NCBI GenBank assembly: GCA_018432315.1
Contig: JAHDLB010000015.1
Span: 1-33,113 of the forward strand
Direction: 5' to 3'
Source: Anaerolineae bacterium
GTDB lineage: Bacteria > Chloroflexota > Anaerolineae > Aggregatilineales > Aggregatilineaceae
DNA length: 33,113 bases
A model generated the notes under the pieces. It was not told the origin of the DNA, searched no databases, and saw only the letters and a list, made by a program, of their open reading frames with translations. Position 1 is the first letter of the stretch; every line of letters starts with the position of its first letter. Positions 2,720-8,881 of this stretch are shown in pieces. Made by a program: the position numbers and the translations under genes.

Positions 2720-3817
2720 TCACCCCTGCGCGGCGAAGCGCCGCAGCCCATCCACCAGGTCGAGCAGCCCGGTCACCCACTGCCCCTGTCGCGAGCGGTA
2801 CCCCCGCAGGTACTGCAGCACCTCGGTGGCCGAGGTCTCGATGTCGCGCAGCTCGTCGGCGGTGAAGTGATCTTGATCGGCGTCCATCGTCTCGATGGCG
2901 GCTGCCGTCTCCAGGACGGCATTCAGCAGCGCCACCAGCGCGACGTTCACCCGCCGCGCCGCGCTCTCGCCATCCGAAGACGCCAGATCCGGCTGGTGAT
3001 GCCGCACATCGCGCCAGGTTTCCGGCTCGCCATAGTCCAGCGCACCCTCTTCATAGCCGCTGTCCTGGTTGAAGTCGTAGCCGTCGTGCTGCGTTACGCG
3101 GCGTGGGGATGGCGTTTTGCCGGACGGTACAGAACGATCGGCAGTCTTTCCGCCAATGTTCGAGGTCTTCATCAGGCGTCCGTCTGCCGTCCGGCGCTCA
3201 CGAGGCACTTTGACATTTGTCAAAGTGGCGATCCTTTCACGCCAACGTGCAATCGTCTTGTTACTGACGCCAAGCTCCCTTGCCAACGCGTTGTCGCTGA
3301 GGCTCGTCCAGTCGTGCCCTCGAAGCGTCCGGCGCTTCAAGATATTGAACTTGTCTTCATTCGACAGCTTCAAGCCATGCCGGAGATTTGCCTCTTCGGC
3401 ATACTCGACTGCCGCCTCATGTCCCCCTGGGAGCAATTTGCCTTTCAACGGCGCGATTGTCACGTCTCCGACTGACAGTTGGAGTGCGCGCCGGGTTGCC
3501 TCGCACCGATGAAAGCCATCGGCGAGAATGAACTTCCCTGCGTCATCATTTCGGTACAACACGACTGGGTCTTTGAACTCGCCTCCATTCAGCAGAATCT
3601 GCGTGTATTGCTCCACCGTTTCTTCATCGAGTCCATTGACTCGAATCTGGATCTCCGGATCGACATCGATCTCGTCCAGCGATACCGGGCGAATGACGGG
3701 ACGGCGACGATCCGCGTCCTGGATTGCCCCGAACAACGCGCCGTCGACCTCCTCAAGGGTGTAGTCGGAGCGTTCGTCGAATGCGTCTGCACCCCGGCCT
3801 TTTCGCCTGCTAGCCAT
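2720..3817 (-). CDS. parB: ParB-family partition protein
   Basis: A 365-residue ParB/RepB-like protein. Residues about 42-150 form the ParB N-terminal (CTPase-like) domain: 'IRPVSLDEIDVDPEIQIRV', then 'FILADGFHRCEATRRA' (the GxHR box at about 101-104) and 'AVEYAEEANLRHGLKLSNEDK'. A helix-turn-helix follows at about 173-196 ('SDNALARELGVSNKTIARWRERI'). The C-terminal third is acidic and helical and probably dimerises. The start ATG 3817 overlaps the parA stop by 8 nt; the upstream in-frame start at 3964 lies deep inside parA and is not credible. It should bind a centromere site of this element; no canonical chromosomal parS (TGTTTCACGTGAAACA-like) is visible in the window. Confidence 0.88.
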   Translation of the reverse strand: MASRRKGRGADAFDERSDYTLEEVDGALFGAIQDADRRRPVIRPVSLDEIDVDPEIQIRVNGLDEETVEQYTQILLNGGEFKDPVVLYRNDDAGKFILADGFHRCEATRRALQLSVGDVTIAPLKGKLLPGGHEAAVEYAEEANLRHGLKLSNEDKFNILKRRTLRGHDWTSLSDNALARELGVSNKTIARWRERIATLTNVKVPRERRTADGRLMKTSNIGGKTADRSVPSGKTPSPRRVTQHDGYDFNQDSGYEEGALDYGEPETWRDVRHHQPDLASSDGESAARRVNVALVALLNAVLETAAAIETMDADQDHFTADELRDIETSATEVLQYLRGYRSRQGQWVTGLLDLVDGLRRFAAQG

Positions 3818-4568
3818 TCGCCAAGACCTCCACGCGATCCACCAGCTCCCAGGCGTGACCTGACGCGTCGCTGTTCGGCGCCTGGACGAAGACGGGAACT
3901 TGATACGTACTGGCCTCGGCCCACACAATGCGCTCGGGAATGATCGGCCACACCAGGTTCCCAAATCGCTCCTTCAGGCTGCGCAGGTTCTCGGTATGCT
4001 CCAGTGTGTTGGAGCGCACTCGCATGGGGATGATGCCGGCCACTTTCACCTGCTTGACACTCTCGACTGCCCGGCGATGCACCAGGCTTTCGGCCAGCCC
4101 ATCAAAGCTCCAAAACTCGCACAGAGTCGGGTAGAGGACGAAGTCCGTGGCCAGATAGATCGCGCCGTGCAGCAGACTTGGCGTTGGCGCGGTATCGATC
4201 AGGCAGAAGTCGAACAACGCCTCCAGGGGCTCGAGTTTTTCGTCGACTAGCCAGGCATCACTGATGCTGTTCGCGATGTGCCTGGTTTCGACATTCGAGC
4301 CAATGAGATAGAGCGTGCTCTCGCCGATACCGCCGTATTTCCCCGAGGGAATAGCCTGGATCACGTCTGAGTAATCCGCGTTGCGAACCAACAGGTCGTA
4401 TAGGCCTGGGTATTTGGCTAGCCCCAGCGCGCGGCTGGCGTGTCCCTGCGCATCAGCGTCGATCAACAACACGCGTTTGCCACGCGACGCCAGCCCAGCG
4501 GCAACGGTGATCGCGATGGTTGTCTTCCCAACCCCGCCTTTTTCGTTGAGCACAGTCACGGTGATCAT
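3810..4568 (-). CDS. parA: ParA-family partition ATPase
   Basis: A 252-residue ParA/MinD-type ATPase. The deviant Walker A is at residues 10-17 (KGGVGKTT), Walker A' at about 35-40 (LIDADA with D37 and D39) and Walker B near 'FDFCLIDTAPTPS' at about 130. There is no N-terminal helix-turn-helix extension, so it is the short (type Ib/Soj-like) form that does not autorepress through its own DNA-binding domain. The start ATG shares ATGA with the stop of the GIY-YIG gene, and the end overlaps parB, so GIY-YIG, parA and parB are translationally coupled. With the adjacent parB it should segregate the element when it is extrachromosomal. Confidence 0.93.
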   Translation of the reverse strand: MITVTVLNEKGGVGKTTIAITVAAGLASRGKRVLLIDADAQGHASRALGLAKYPGLYDLLVRNADYSDVIQAIPSGKYGGIGESTLYLIGSNVETRHIANSISDAWLVDEKLEPLEALFDFCLIDTAPTPSLLHGAIYLATDFVLYPTLCEFWSFDGLAESLVHRRAVESVKQVKVAGIIPMRVRSNTLEHTENLRSLKERFGNLVWPIIPERIVWAEASTYQVPVFVQAPNSDASGHAWELVDRVEVLANG

Positions 4569-5032
4569 GGTTTCAGCTCCTCCTGTTGTTGACTTGAGGC
4601 CGCCACATAGACAGCCATGGGATCACAGCCACGAGATCGGCTGAAAAAGGGCCTGCGTCCAGGTCGCTGAGGTCGATAGTCGCACCAGGTGAATGCGAGC
4701 TTCTCCATGATGATCAGAAGCTGTTCAAACACGTGAAGCCACATGGTGCTGGCGTAGCCAAGCGAAGCCGAGTTGGACATATCGAACCATTCACCGCCGA
4801 TGAGCATGGGCTCAAACAAGTCGTGGAATGCCTTCTCAACTGCGCGAGCGAGTTCCTCATCGCGGCATGGAAATACACCTAGCATGTGCAACTCGTGCGG
4901 GTTACCCGTCTGAAGTTGCGCCATTCGTCGATACGGATCCTTCGAGATTCCGATCTTGACGTGGGCTTTCTGGTCCACCGCATACACGTACATCGGATAG
5001 CGCACTTCCTCTTGCTTCGGGTTTTTGGGCAT
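4565..5032 (-). CDS. T5orf172-type GIY-YIG domain protein
   Basis: A 155-residue protein. The N-terminal 90 residues match the T5orf172/Mug113 branch of the GIY-YIG superfamily: 'MYVYAVD' (14-20), 'VKIGIS' (25-30), 'DPYRRMAQLQTGNP' (32-45), then 'LARAVEKAFHDLFEP' carrying the helical Glu (E66), and 'GEWFDM' (80-85). The C-terminus is not recognisable. ATG 5032 was chosen because it is preceded by AGGAAAGGA (5053-5040 region) and the domain begins right after it; the longer reading frame upstream runs into the duplicated DNA at 5082-5205. Such proteins occur in phages and plasmids as nucleases or DNA-binding proteins. Coupled by ATGA overlap to parA. Confidence 0.8.
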   Translation of the reverse strand: MPKNPKQEEVRYPMYVYAVDQKAHVKIGISKDPYRRMAQLQTGNPHELHMLGVFPCRDEELARAVEKAFHDLFEPMLIGGEWFDMSNSASLGYASTMWLHVFEQLLIIMEKLAFTWCDYRPQRPGRRPFFSRSRGCDPMAVYVAASSQQQEELKP

Positions 5033-5081
5033 TTGTGGTATCCTTTCCTCACTCCTGGCCCTGGCCGCTTCGGCGGTCGGG

Positions 5082-5207
5082 GCCGTCTGATTCACGTCAT
5101 GCAGTAGTCGCCGCACAGCTCGAACAGCGGTCCGGCGCCCGGCGCCGTCTGATTCACGTCATGCAGTAGTCGCCGCACAGCTCGAACAGCGGTCCGGCGC
5201 CCGGCGC
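5082..5207. repeat. Perfect 62-bp tandem duplication at the 3' end of the PP-loop gene
   Basis: Positions 5082-5143 are repeated base for base at 5144-5205, with two more matching bases afterwards. The copy nearer the gene (5144-5205) holds the last 17 codons and the stop of the PP-loop gene. The other copy holds the same codons and stop again, now untranslated. Because the gene meets the first stop, its protein is unchanged. Identity is complete, so the event looks recent. A separate 5-bp/4-bp nested hairpin (GGCCC/GGGCC around CCGC/GCGG) lies at 5057-5084 between the duplication and the next gene. Confidence 0.95.
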
Positions 5208-6104
5208 TTCGAAATCCACCTCGCGCAGCGGAATCCCCGATCGGTGCAGAAACACGTCCTGGCGCAGCTTGCGCGTGAACCGCCGCCGCCCTTCCGGCGA
5301 CCGCAACCAGTCGTCGAACTGGCACGCTCGCTCGAAGTAGGCCGGATAGTCCGTCTTCAGCCGCCGCCAGTACGCGTCGTCGTGGAACGGGCAGTGCACG
5401 CACGAGGACTTGTACGGCACTCTCAGCCCGCGCTCCCGCAGCCAGCGCTCGCAGTCGCTCCGCCGCATCCGCCGGTCGATGAGGGGATACACCGTGCGCT
5501 GCCACCCCGGTCCGCGCTTGCCCGACCGGTAGAACTCGTCCAGGCTGATGCCGTACAGGTGCTCGGTGCACACCTGGCGGCTCACCTGGCGCCGCGTCCA
5601 GCCGCGCTTGTCGTGGATCAGGCGGGCATGGCCGTGCGCCACCAGCCAGTCCCGCACCCAGTCGTCCGACGGCTCGATCTTGTACTCGCTGGTGCACTGC
5701 CGGCGCAGGATGCCGGTCTGTCCGGTGCGCGGATCCTGCGTGTAGAGCGGCATCGAGGCGAAGCGTCCCGCCCCGTGGATCGCGTCGTGCACCAGCCCCT
5801 GAGCGCTCCTGGCGACCCGCTCCAGCGGAATACCTCGCGTGGCTAACCGCCCCTCCAGGTAGTCCAGCTGCTCGTATACCCACGGCGGCTCGTCTTTGGT
5901 GTCGGCGAAGACCACTGCGTCGACCGGCGCCAGATCCCCCTCGACGATCATCTCGGCCAGCGTGCTCGACTGAACCCCGGCACCCAGGTGCAGAAACCGT
6001 CCCACGCACACGCGCGCCGGCTGCGACCGGACGCGCCGCGCTTCCAGGCGGTGGATCACCACCGGCACCGTGTCGAACAGGCTCAGTTGGCAGACCGCTG
6101 CCAT
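5154..6104 (-). CDS. PP-loop ATPase, PAPS-reductase-like (phage/mobile-element type)
   Basis: A 316-residue member of the phosphoadenosine phosphosulfate reductase-like PP-loop family. The nucleotide loop is 'HLGAGVQSSTLAEM' (39-52), followed by 'VVFADTKDEPPWVYEQLDYL' (64-83), as in the family. 'RRQCTSEYKIEP' (135-145) carries a conserved Cys, 'RRQVSRQVCTEHLYGISLDE' follows, and 'SSCVHCPF' (233-240) is the CxxC of the phage-type branch. Two more cysteines lie at the C-terminal tail (C310, C314). ATG 6104 has GAGGGGAG upstream; the longer in-frame start would lie inside the initiator gene. The relatives include the DndC-type sulfur-transfer enzymes of DNA modification, but no other dnd gene is in the window. 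Real substrate unknown. Confidence 0.8.
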   Translation of the reverse strand: MAAVCQLSLFDTVPVVIHRLEARRVRSQPARVCVGRFLHLGAGVQSSTLAEMIVEGDLAPVDAVVFADTKDEPPWVYEQLDYLEGRLATRGIPLERVARSAQGLVHDAIHGAGRFASMPLYTQDPRTGQTGILRRQCTSEYKIEPSDDWVRDWLVAHGHARLIHDKRGWTRRQVSRQVCTEHLYGISLDEFYRSGKRGPGWQRTVYPLIDRRMRRSDCERWLRERGLRVPYKSSCVHCPFHDDAYWRRLKTDYPAYFERACQFDDWLRSPEGRRRFTRKLRQDVFLHRSGIPLREVDFEAPGAGPLFELCGDYCMT

Positions 6105-6142
6105 GCTCTCGCTCCCCTCGTCAAACGCTGCGCCACCGATCG

Positions 6143-7555
6143 CTACCCTTTGCTCACCGCAGCCGGCGCCAGGCTGAGGTGGTGGTTGAACAACTTCACG
6201 TCGCACTCGTAGGCGACCTTCACCGGAATCCCCGCCGCCCGCGTCACCATCGCCTCGATGTCGGGAAAGTGCTGCGGGATGTAGTCGGGCGCATAGGCGT
6301 GGCGCACCTTCACCGTCAGCACACCATCGGCGAATCGCGCCGGCTCCGCGCGCCGCAGCCACGTGTCGAACGTCGAGCGGTTGAGCTGCAGCTCCAACTG
6401 CCCCATGACCGCCAGCCAGGCGCTGCGCATGCTGGTCTTCTGGCCGGGTCCGACCTCGTCGAGGGCGAGCACCTCAGGCGACGGCTCGGATGGCTCGGAT
6501 AGCGCCGGCTCGCTCGCCGCGCGCTGCTCCTCCGCCTGCCGCATCGAGTCGGCGACCATTGGCCCGAACCGCGCCGCGATCTCGGCATACATCGCGTCGA
6601 CCGGCACCTGGGCGTCATCCGTCGCCGGCTCGCTGGCCAGCGCCCACGCTGCCCGATCGGCGTACTTCGCCATCGGCTCGTCGCCGTTCTTCAGCATCGT
6701 GCGCAGCAGCCCGGCGGCGTTCGTCTTGGCTTCGCCGCGAGCGTGGTAGACCAGCCCGAGCGCCGCCTCCGGATCCCGCTCCAGGAGCATCTCGCGCAGC
6801 GCCTTGGACAGCCCCATGCCTTTCCACGCCGCCGCGACCAGCGCGCGTGTCCCCTCGTCCCAGGCGCGCTTGTTTGTTTGATGATCCTGATCCGGGGATT
6901 CAGGATCCCCATCATCATTCAATACCTGGGTTTGATTCCTTCTGTCCCACAGACCCCCGGTGTTATGTGCCACAGAAGACCTGGTGGTCTGTCCCACAGA
7001 AGGCTCGGTGTTCTGTCCCACAGAAGACCCGGTGTGTTGTGGCACAGAAGACCCGGTATTCTGTCGGACAGAAGTCCCGGCGTGTTGCCCCTCAGCAGAC
7101 TCGGTGTTCTGTCCCACAGAAGACCTCACTTCATCCTGGCGCTTGGCGGCTCGTGCCCGACGCGCCGCCGCCGTGCGCTTCTTCTCCATGGCCGTCTTCC
7201 GGGCTTTGCGCTGCTTCAAGCCCTCCCAGTCGATGTCCGGCTGGTTGAACGCCAGTTCCCACAACTGCCCGTCCTGCGTCGGTGGGCCGATCCGCCGCAG
7301 AATCCGGAAGCGATCCAGCGCGTCGAGCGCCGTACGCAGCGTGTTCACCGGCAACCCGCACTGCTGGAACATACTCAGGCTGATGCGTGCCCGCCGGCGC
7401 GCGATCTTGTCCTCCCATCCCAGGATGTGACGCACGGCGAATGACAGCGCCACGTATTCCTCAGGCTTGAGGAGCGGCATGACGCGGTCGACCAGGATGT
7501 TGGGCGTCTGAAAACTGTTCGGGATAAATCCATTGGTGTCCTCAGTTTGTGTCAT
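6143..7555 (-). CDS. Replication initiator-like protein with C-terminal DnaA domain I
   Basis: A 470-residue protein. Residues about 10-108 look like the winged-helix initiator domain of phage and plasmid Rep/O proteins ('NGFIPNSFQTPNILVDRVMP', 'ISLSMFQQCGLPVNTLRTAL'). Residues 112-140 are very basic. Residues 144-208 are an eight-residue repeat of the form SSVGQNTG, encoded by the DNA repeat at 6943-7126. A middle helical region follows (about 228-345). Residues about 377-452 resemble DnaA domain I ('AWLAVMGQLELQLNRSTFDTWL', 'DGVLTVKVRHAYAPDYI'), the part that contacts the helicase. No AAA+ module is present, so it probably recruits a host helicase rather than melting DNA with ATP. ATG 7555 has GGTGGAAAG upstream. 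First gene of the leftward operon. Confidence 0.75.
   Translation of the reverse strand: MTQTEDTNGFIPNSFQTPNILVDRVMPLLKPEEYVALSFAVRHILGWEDKIARRRARISLSMFQQCGLPVNTLRTALDALDRFRILRRIGPPTQDGQLWELAFNQPDIDWEGLKQRKARKTAMEKKRTAAARRARAAKRQDEVRSSVGQNTESAEGQHAGTSVRQNTGSSVPQHTGSSVGQNTEPSVGQTTRSSVAHNTGGLWDRRNQTQVLNDDGDPESPDQDHQTNKRAWDEGTRALVAAAWKGMGLSKALREMLLERDPEAALGLVYHARGEAKTNAAGLLRTMLKNGDEPMAKYADRAAWALASEPATDDAQVPVDAMYAEIAARFGPMVADSMRQAEEQRAASEPALSEPSEPSPEVLALDEVGPGQKTSMRSAWLAVMGQLELQLNRSTFDTWLRRAEPARFADGVLTVKVRHAYAPDYIPQHFPDIEAMVTRAAGIPVKVAYECDVKLFNHHLSLAPAAVSKG
6883..6910. repeat. Competing inverted repeats next to the iteron-like array
   Basis: GATCCTGA (6883-6890) pairs with TCAGGATC (6900-6907), and GGGGAT (6894-6899) pairs with ATCCCC (6905-6910). 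The two dyads share bases, so only one can form at a time. They lie 33 bp from the first direct repeat, in a locally less GC-rich stretch of the initiator gene. Confidence 0.6.
6943..7126. repeat. Eight 24-bp direct repeats inside the initiator gene (iteron-like)
   Basis: Units begin at 6943, 6966, 6990, 7014, 7038, 7062, 7086 and 7110. The plus-strand core is TGTCCCACAGAAG, followed by a looser ACCCGGTGTTC tail. Spacing is 24 bp except between the first two units (23 bp). That one-base change shifts the reading frame of the first unit, so the protein repeat is lost there (it reads GLWDRR) while the DNA core is kept. Units at 7038 and 6966 carry changes in the central CCC; the unit at 7086 is the most diverged. 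The array resembles origin iterons within a replication gene, as in the lambda O gene. Confidence 0.85.
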
Positions 7556-7639: not shown

Positions 7640-7722
7640 AGTCATGGCACGGGCCACTCCCGTGTGTTGGAACATCCGGCGGCTGAGTCGATGCTCGGCC
7701 GCCGGATGTTTTGATTTTGTTA
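7640..7722 (+). ncRNA. Candidate small RNA between initiator and integrase genes
   Basis: From the promoter at 7625-7633 a transcript of about 75-85 nt would hold a first hairpin, CACGGG-ccact-CCCGTG (7648-7664), and then the long terminator hairpin at 7671-7710 with its T-rich tail. There is no credible ORF: the frame open from ATG 7644 has no ribosome site. It could be a free small RNA, for example a copy-number or integration regulator, or a leader that attenuates the integrase gene. No expression evidence is available. Confidence 0.4.
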
Positions 7723-7790: not shown

Positions 7791-8768
7791 ATGAAGCTAA
7801 GAGAAGCTCTTGAGGAATTCCTGCGCGTCGATCGGGCTGAACAAACCAGGCGGACCTACGAAACGTTTTTGACCCGGTTCGTCGATGCCATCGGACCAGA
7901 GCGCCCACTCGATCTCATCCGCCCACAAGACATCGATGTCTTCGTGCGTGAGATGAAGCAGCGCAAGGTCAAATATGCAGAGCACAGCCGGCGGCCCACC
8001 GTCAACGCCCCATTATCGTCCACGACCATCTACAAGAACGTGAAGATGATCAAGACCTTCTTCAAATGGTGTGTGGACAATCATCTGCTTGAGGAGTCAC
8101 CAGCCGGGTATCTGGTCAACCGCCGGCCAGTTCGTCCACTGGGCCAGGGCAAGGCAGCGACGGAAAAGGAAGTGATCGCTTTGCTCGAGGCAGCGCGCTT
8201 CAAACCGCGCGACTTCGCGATCCTACAGCTTCTCGTGACATCCGGATGCCGGGCAGGCGAAGCCGCCGGTCTGAAGATCCGCGATCTGGATCTGGTGGGG
8301 TGTCATGCATTGGTGGATGGAAAAGGGGATGTGCGTCGTCGAATCTACTTCACGGAGGATGCCGCCATCGCTCTAGCGGCCTGGCTGGAGATACGCCCTG
8401 ATACAGACCATGACTACGTCTTCACGTCCATCCGCAAGGAGCATCCTGCTTTGACAGCCTGGGCCATTTCAAGCATTCTGCGGCGATTGGCGCGGGTCGC
8501 TGGGCTCAAGCGCGAGTTGGGCGCCCACAGCCTGCGACATCGCGTCGGCCTGATATTCGCACGTAAGCGTATTTCGCCACGTCTCACCCAGCACTATCTG
8601 GGTCACACGAACATCAAGACGACACTCGAATACTACCAGGACATCGACGATGATGACATCAAGCTGGCGGGGAAACTGCTGGAGCCTCGACCGGAGGAAG
8701 ATTGGCGAGAGGAGACAAAACAAAACCCTGCCGCCAAGCTGCTTAAGCCGCGTACAGGGTCTGGTTAA
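7791..8768 (+). CDS. int: Tyrosine recombinase/integrase
   Basis: A 325-residue XerC/D-like integrase. Residues about 3-100 form the SAM-like core-binding domain ('LREALEEFLRVDRAEQTRRTYETFLTRF'); residues about 120-300 form the catalytic domain. The catalytic set is present: R154 (SGCRAGE), K178 (DGKGD), H246 and R249 (HSLRH), H272 (YLGHTN) and Y281 or Y282 (LEYYQD). The start ATG 7791 is fixed by a near-perfect ribosome site AAGGAGGT at 7777-7784; the open frame that continues up to 7644 crosses a terminator and is not used. The gene points to the 3' end of tRNA-Pro, 38 bp from its stop, the usual layout of a tRNA-integrating element. It should catalyse integration and excision at that tRNA. 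Confidence 0.93.
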   Translation: MKLREALEEFLRVDRAEQTRRTYETFLTRFVDAIGPERPLDLIRPQDIDVFVREMKQRKVKYAEHSRRPTVNAPLSSTTIYKNVKMIKTFFKWCVDNHLLEESPAGYLVNRRPVRPLGQGKAATEKEVIALLEAARFKPRDFAILQLLVTSGCRAGEAAGLKIRDLDLVGCHALVDGKGDVRRRIYFTEDAAIALAAWLEIRPDTDHDYVFTSIRKEHPALTAWAISSILRRLARVAGLKRELGAHSLRHRVGLIFARKRISPRLTQHYLGHTNIKTTLEYYQDIDDDDIKLAGKLLEPRPEEDWREETKQNPAAKLLKPRTGSG

Positions 8769-8782: not shown

Positions 8783-8850
8783 TGGTGCAAAGTGCGTTAA
8801 ACTCTGTCGGGGCGCCCGGATTTGAACCGGGGACCTCACCGACCCGAACG
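8783..8850. other. Probable attachment junction of the integrated element
   Basis: The integrase is directly next to the 3' end of tRNA-Pro, and the gene content changes here from mobile to core genes. The crossover in this family usually lies in the 3' half or anticodon arm of the tRNA, so the core should be within 8807-8850. The second copy would be beyond the left edge, so the exact core cannot be set from this window. Confidence 0.4.
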
Positions 8851-8881
8851 GTGCGCGCTAGCCAAACTGCGCTACGCCCCG
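8807..8881 (-). tRNA. tRNA-Pro(CGG)
   Basis: Read on the minus strand the 75 bases fold into a complete cloverleaf. The acceptor is CGGGGCG/CGCCCCG with discriminator A at 8807. The D arm contains GCGC-AGTTTGGCTA-GCGC. The anticodon arm is CACCG/CGGTG around the loop TTCGGGT, giving anticodon CGG (proline, codon CCG). The T arm is CCCGG/CCGGG with loop TTCAAAT. The 3' CCA is not encoded. The integrase gene lies just beyond its 3' end, marking it as the integration target. Confidence 0.95.

Follow-up and report, generated by a model that had tools for sequence, protein, structure and literature searches.

We conclude from sequence comparison, with a probability of roughly 0.8, that eight palindromic iterons in a row make up the iteron portion of a replication origin located inside the gene of its own initiator, and that the element carrying this gene (rep) is an integrated element of the temperate-phage type. 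The array within rep is most likely the site at which the element begins DNA copying. The DNA analysed, called here the window, is one whole contig of 33,113 nucleotides from an Anaerolineae bacterium, in which the element is cut at the left end (Table 1). Our reading is based on palindromes in excess of what codon shuffling would give, on the rep of contig C58 in the same genome, which differs in both DNA-binding domain and array, and on the reading frames of the arrays in the relative from genome G007 and in the A1 family of Reps. The AT-rich segment after the array, the matches to O-like families in PHROG, and the layout of the lambda iterons point in the same direction. Against it speak a possible duplication of the in-frame units, the decay of unit 7, the existence of Reps with DnaA domain I in which the tests used show no array, the failure of the AT-rich test in some genes, and the lack of support from GC skew.

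Table 1. Location of the features of the window discussed in the text
Feature	Position	Strand	Basis and remarks
rep, initiator gene	6143..7555	(-)	ORF of 470 aa; PHROG O-like N-terminus; Pfam DnaA_N C-terminus
N-terminal O-like domain, aa 5-113, predicted winged helix and DNA binding	7217..7543	(-)	PHROG matches
DnaA domain I, C-terminal, aa 378-432, putative recruiter of host replication proteins	6260..6424	(-)	Pfam DnaA_N
Array, eight palindromic iterons	6940..7126		units 6940, 6963, 6987, 7011, 7035, 7059, 7083 (degenerate), 7107
AT-rich segment, candidate unwinding element	6868..6939		adjoins array
rep half common to window and contig C58	6162..6918	(-)	91.9% DNA identity; match ends about 22 bp from array
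ParB-like gene	2720..3796	(-)	PHROG 1033, E 1.8e-15
ParA-like gene	3810..4568	(-)	PHROG 164, E 1.2e-38
Tyrosine integrase	7791..8768	(+)	Pfam Phage_integrase, E 1.3e-27
tRNA-Pro (CGG), likely integration site	8806..8881	(-)	ARAGORN

The N-terminal domain of the Rep protein resembles O-like replication initiation proteins, the matches being weak (PHROG 678, aa 5–113, E 3.7e-5; PHROG 18020, aa 7–81, E 1.8e-4), and has no Pfam match up to E 0.1. The Pfam family Phage_rep_O is matched by L105 and is unmatched by the window Rep. A profile of the domain (9 rows) matched solved structures weakly, with E 0.047 at best and many HTH regulators among them, and the nearest named relative among the matches listed is from an uncultured Anaerolineae MAG. 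The sole Pfam match of the protein is DnaA_N at aa 378–432 (E 3.2e-6); the preliminary description had correctly placed a DnaA domain I at the C-terminus. The best solved relative of this tail is likewise DnaA domain I (4tps, E 0.0018), and the window tail shares 49% identity with the domain I of the DnaA protein of the same genome.

The array is found between the parts of the gene coding for these two domains. The iteron unit is a 15-bp palindrome, TTCTGT-SSS-ACAGAA, and this placement of the arms has the fewest mismatches among 24 rotations. Over the eight units the arms carry 10/96 mismatches, the centre 5/24 and the spacer 18/72; the three central bases are variable, yet C or G in every unit. 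TRF describes the array with a period of 24, 7.8 copies, 73% matches and a score of 204. The core starts are at 6943, 6966, 6990, 7014, 7038, 7062, 7086, and 7110, with one spacing of 23 bp followed by six of 24 bp. The odd spacing separates the final two units in the coding direction, and unit 1 (6943, the last in this direction) is read in another frame, encoding GLWDRR as compared with, for example, SSVGQN elsewhere. The initial observation that the first spacing is 23 bp and that unit 1 keeps its core TGTCCCACAG unchanged in a different frame proved exact. There are also eight units in rep as had been described, but to call them near-identical is too strong, as the exact core is found in four of the eight (units 1, 3, 4, and 8) and unit 7 is degenerate.

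With up to two mismatches the palindrome occurs seven times in the window, compared with 0.14 expected, and none of 100 shuffles reached seven; at the same threshold the window has no unit copies outside the array. With up to one mismatch, seven places are found in the 5.69-Mb genome, six of them within the array. In a codon-shuffle test, in which synonymous codons were permuted within the gene with protein and codon usage kept and clustered repeated palindromes were scored, the window rep reached 93.4, whereas 1500 shuffles gave a mean of 20.9 and a maximum of 48.2 (seven of the eight units were counted, unit 7 being left out).

The same genome contains two further such loci, on contig C58 with tRNA-Pro(GGG) and an integrase and on contig C62 with tRNA-Pro(TGG) and an integrase. 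From aa 209 onward, the Rep protein of C58 is 88% identical to the window Rep, and its N-terminal domain is a different one (HTH_36 and other O-like PHROGs). The array is different as well: it consists of four units ACTGGTGAA-N6-TTCACCAGT (up to 2 mismatches, 0.00 expected), which encode LVNPSS/LVNSSS in one frame and GEPQFT/GESGFT in another. At the level of sequence, then, N-terminal domain and array both differ between the two genes while the remainder is common. C62 has a window-type N-terminal domain (84% identity, aa 1–82) in an open frame of 163 aa that does not contain the rest of Rep, and TRF did not find an array of the window kind on the C62 stretch searched; this locus is a remnant. 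A full-length relative with 34% identity is encoded in genome G007 of the same family, and its gene harbors the unit GGTACG-N5-CGTACC seven times, spread over three frames.

The A1 family comprises seven genes of 725–817 codons (stop to stop) from six genomes of the same host family, and its Reps resemble the window Rep in the C-terminal part only. The A1 iteron is GTCYGCCACA. Six of the seven genes have six sites (≤2 mismatches) exactly 34, 34, 34, 34, and 23 bp apart, which fall in frames 2, 0, 1, 2, 0, and 2 and are translated, for example, as SAT, VCH/VRH, and GPPQ. In the seventh gene, L042, the second site lies beyond the mismatch limit and leaves a gap of 68 bp, that is 2 x 34. A comparison of synonymous change, which had been proposed at the outset, was carried out in these relatives, which stand outside the window's own family, and the codons proved frozen in the cores: same residues have identical codons in 303/346 pairs within the cores (0.876) versus 3687/7123 outside (0.518), and 0/554 placements slid along the gene reach the core value (the pair L042/L043 was omitted and the second L042 site was set by position). 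The final spacing is 23 bp in all seven A1 genes, like the spacing at the C-terminal end of the window array.

The preliminary description favored selection on the DNA, or very recent duplication, over selection on the peptide. Selection on the DNA is well supported by the arrays of C58, G007, and A1, mainly because in the relatives the N-terminal domain and array have changed (C58), the frames differ, and the codons are frozen (A1), but a recent duplication of the window's in-frame units is possible.

We also surveyed 36 rep-like genes and 19 controls (DnaA genes and other genes of the window). The rep-like genes were picked by hand among the matches listed for having a frame or match position unlike DnaA or an O-like N-terminal domain, and are not independent, as they include close kin (the seven A1 genes; L091, L092, and L094; L038 and L039). 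A repeated-palindrome score of z>3 was obtained for 19/36 reps versus 0/19 controls, and in 16 of these 19 the sites lie in at least two frames. The statistic is a revised one. A plain count, unclustered and unweighted by base composition, had given p<0.05 in 12/36 reps and 1/19 controls (window p 0.010, C58 p 0.347); because GC-rich words dominated this count, clustering and base-composition weighting were introduced after its result had been seen. An 11-mer test for any motif yielded z>3 in 29/36 reps and in one of the 19 controls (L018, a DnaA gene, z 4.0); its p-values are weak, as the 25 shuffles per gene set a floor of p 0.038, at which 32/36 reps and also 6/19 controls are found. Altogether 32/36 reps have z>3 in one or both tests. 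Among the 21 aligned Reps with C-terminal DnaA domain I, 17 pass at least one test. For L047, L050, L099, and L100, which are Reps with DnaA domain I, neither test detects an array, and L123, with DnaA_N near the C-terminus, fails the palindrome test, the sole array test there. Arrays at a comparable place also occur on phage contigs, within their O-like rep genes.

Searches of phage records with the whole window Rep gave no match, and viral scans with the Reps of the window, A1, G007, and C58 gave no locus. Among plasmids, a search with the whole Rep matched domain I once, in Leptolinea sp. HRD-7; that protein has the domain at its N-terminus, and a palindrome array was not found in its gene. 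Rep-like proteins with DnaA domain I at the N-terminus instead are encoded by L091–L094, and L122:4959-5846, one of them on the Leptolinea plasmid.

The DNA next to the array has a GC content of 0.46 in the 50 bp from 6900, compared with about 0.72–0.74 in the 150 bp from 6700. The minimum GC in 50 bp after the array is 0.44 in the window, versus a mean of 0.56 in codon-shuffled copies (p 0.003). All genes with palindrome z>3 except L096 were compared (18 of 19), and the stretch right after the array is AT-richer than in codon-shuffled copies in eight of them (p≤0.013); L048, L102, and several O-like phage genes fail this test. The AT-richest 50 bp of the gene begins at most 30 nt from the array end in 13/18 genes, 0.99 being expected for uniform placement; the window rep is not one of these 13. 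GC skew shows no clear switch at the array in the window and no switch at the array in G007:C5, a contig without end overlap.

In the window, rep adjoins the integrase and the tRNA-Pro(CGG) gene, and the ParA- and ParB-like genes follow. Since C58 has a gene for the large terminase subunit (E 1.3e-29), the elements of the window, C58, and C62 look like temperate phages; no virion genes were recognised among ten window proteins scanned with Pfam and PHROG. Three related integrases are present in the genome (G000 C5, C58, and C62), each beside a different tRNA-Pro gene (CGG, GGG, and TGG). A 33-base piece matching 8805–8837 at 97% stands alone on contig C15. This and a second lone tRNA-Pro 3′ piece (C15:4698–4730 and C28:15737–15814) may mark the far ends of such elements or be scars left by them. 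On C28 the piece is accompanied by a short stretch resembling the 3′ end of the integrase gene, and we set C28 aside as evidence of an element, no integrase gene being recognised and a tail-fibre match lying about 2.7 kb off in an ORF of 1582 aa. Two direct repeats of 62 bp, 92% identical, surround the end of the gene at 5154 (window 5066–5189), and an 81-bp match (94%) occurs on C58 ahead of its parA. An inverted repeat with 17-bp arms, 94% complementary, is located between rep and the integrase (7671–7710).

Three other explanations of the array have to be weighed. The palindromes might be in-gene operators of Rep or another regulator that serve autoregulation, copy-number control or incompatibility, with the origin elsewhere. 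What the codon-shuffle test by itself shows is a binding-site character, which would suit operators too, but a multi-site array in the middle of the gene beside an AT-rich segment is the layout of ori-lambda, and since there are no unit copies beyond the array in the window (≤2 mismatches), there are none at the rep promoter. We regard operators as unlikely. It is considerably less probable that the array is the partition site of the element's ParA and ParB. Such genes are part of the element, and C58 has no DNA match to window 3114–5019 and 5098–6162, which covers parA, so that a change of the array could accompany a change of parA; yet the array lies inside rep by the DNA-binding domain and about 2.4 kb from parA, and the O-like reps of phage contigs, where rep genes alone were compared, have arrays in a like place. 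Finally, a mere peptide repeat, in which a flexible linker grew by in-frame tandem duplication and the similarity of the DNA is incidental, would agree with the common frame of units 2–8 at 24 bp and the few conserved residues of the linker, but is hardly credible and was rejected, as the units are palindromes, codon shuffles that keep the peptide never attain the observed score, other frames are used in the window and its relatives, and the A1 codons are frozen.

For the preferred reading, an origin inside rep, we suggest the following course of initiation. The N-terminal domain of Rep would bind the palindromic iterons in its own gene, probably as a dimer, and the complex would open the AT-rich segment that adjoins the last iteron. 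Host replication proteins, either the helicase or its loader, might then be brought in by the DnaA domain I at the C-terminus, which would do the task performed by the C-terminus of lambda O together with P. A tryptophan that we take to be the equivalent of Trp6 of E. coli DnaA is present in all 21 aligned Reps with C-terminal domain I. According to one source (PMC5448010), domain I of E. coli DnaA dimerizes through Trp6 and binds DnaB, and a helicase contact is not reported there for domain I of B. subtilis DnaA. As domain I of B. subtilis is without a known helicase contact, the recruitment step may differ.

A tree of domain I (72 columns, 21 of the 40 inner branches open), in which the starred branches force two changes between Rep and DnaA, suggests that Reps have captured this domain from DnaA repeatedly. 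Tentatively, we propose that these genes could be modular one-gene replicons, in which each DNA-binding domain would move as one cassette with the palindromic array that it fits and be joined to a conserved half; this half would hold the AT-rich segment and a domain I acquired from host DnaA, probably on more than one occasion, and the tail might replace the phage helicase loader by addressing the host initiation machinery. Initiator specificity would be tied to a readable DNA code within the gene itself, and the related elements offer pairs of domain and array from which to learn how initiators choose iterons. With the tail, one could ask directly if domain I, on its own and away from DnaA, is able to recruit a replicative helicase. 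In the A1 family a single DNA word is clearly kept in all three reading frames, an example that can serve in teaching and in the search for origins hidden in other genes.

We recognised no description of initiators with an in-gene array and C-terminal DnaA domain I among the literature matches listed, a scope mostly outside subscription journals. With DnaA itself, the window Rep shares domain I, but in reversed order, at the C-terminus, and AAA+ and DnaA-box-binding domains were not found in it by Pfam. In PHROG 26369 (replication initiation protein), which is 347 positions long, roughly the final 70 align with the domain I tails of L103, L049, and L037, so that a tail of this kind seems to be catalogued already in a phage family; the window Rep has no match to it up to E 0.1. 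In repABC plasmids, as described in PMC3155836, the origin also lies inside the initiator gene, repC, at an A+T-rich region and with ParA/ParB-type genes nearby, but has no iterons there, and the window Rep has no match to the RepC family in Pfam, PHROG or NCBIfam. In RepA_N plasmids (pSK41), according to PMC5703833, Rep boxes are central in rep, an N-terminal winged-helix domain binds them, the origin encodes the linker, and the C-terminal domain is host specific. The C-terminal domain of pSK41 contacts the DnaG primase, whereas the window tail is a DnaA domain I, and Pfam found no RepA_N domain in the window Rep.

A close parallel is lambda, and the lambda O gene had been aptly named as precedent: ori-lambda, and also that of Stx phages, lies in the middle of O, where each iteron is an imperfect inverted repeat and an AT-rich tract is adjacent (PMC7466680), in a gene with an O-like N-terminal domain, just as palindromic iterons followed by an AT-rich segment and O-like PHROG matches are seen here. 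The differences are the DnaA domain I at the C-terminus, the unit and its spacing, and the gene after rep (5154–6102, minus strand), for which neither Pfam nor PHROG gave a match up to E 0.1, hence nothing P-like. The proposal of a new replicon type is supported in part: origins inside initiator genes are known from lambda O, RepA_N, and repC, but a tail made of DnaA domain I, and a DNA-binding domain exchanged together with its array, seem to be new.
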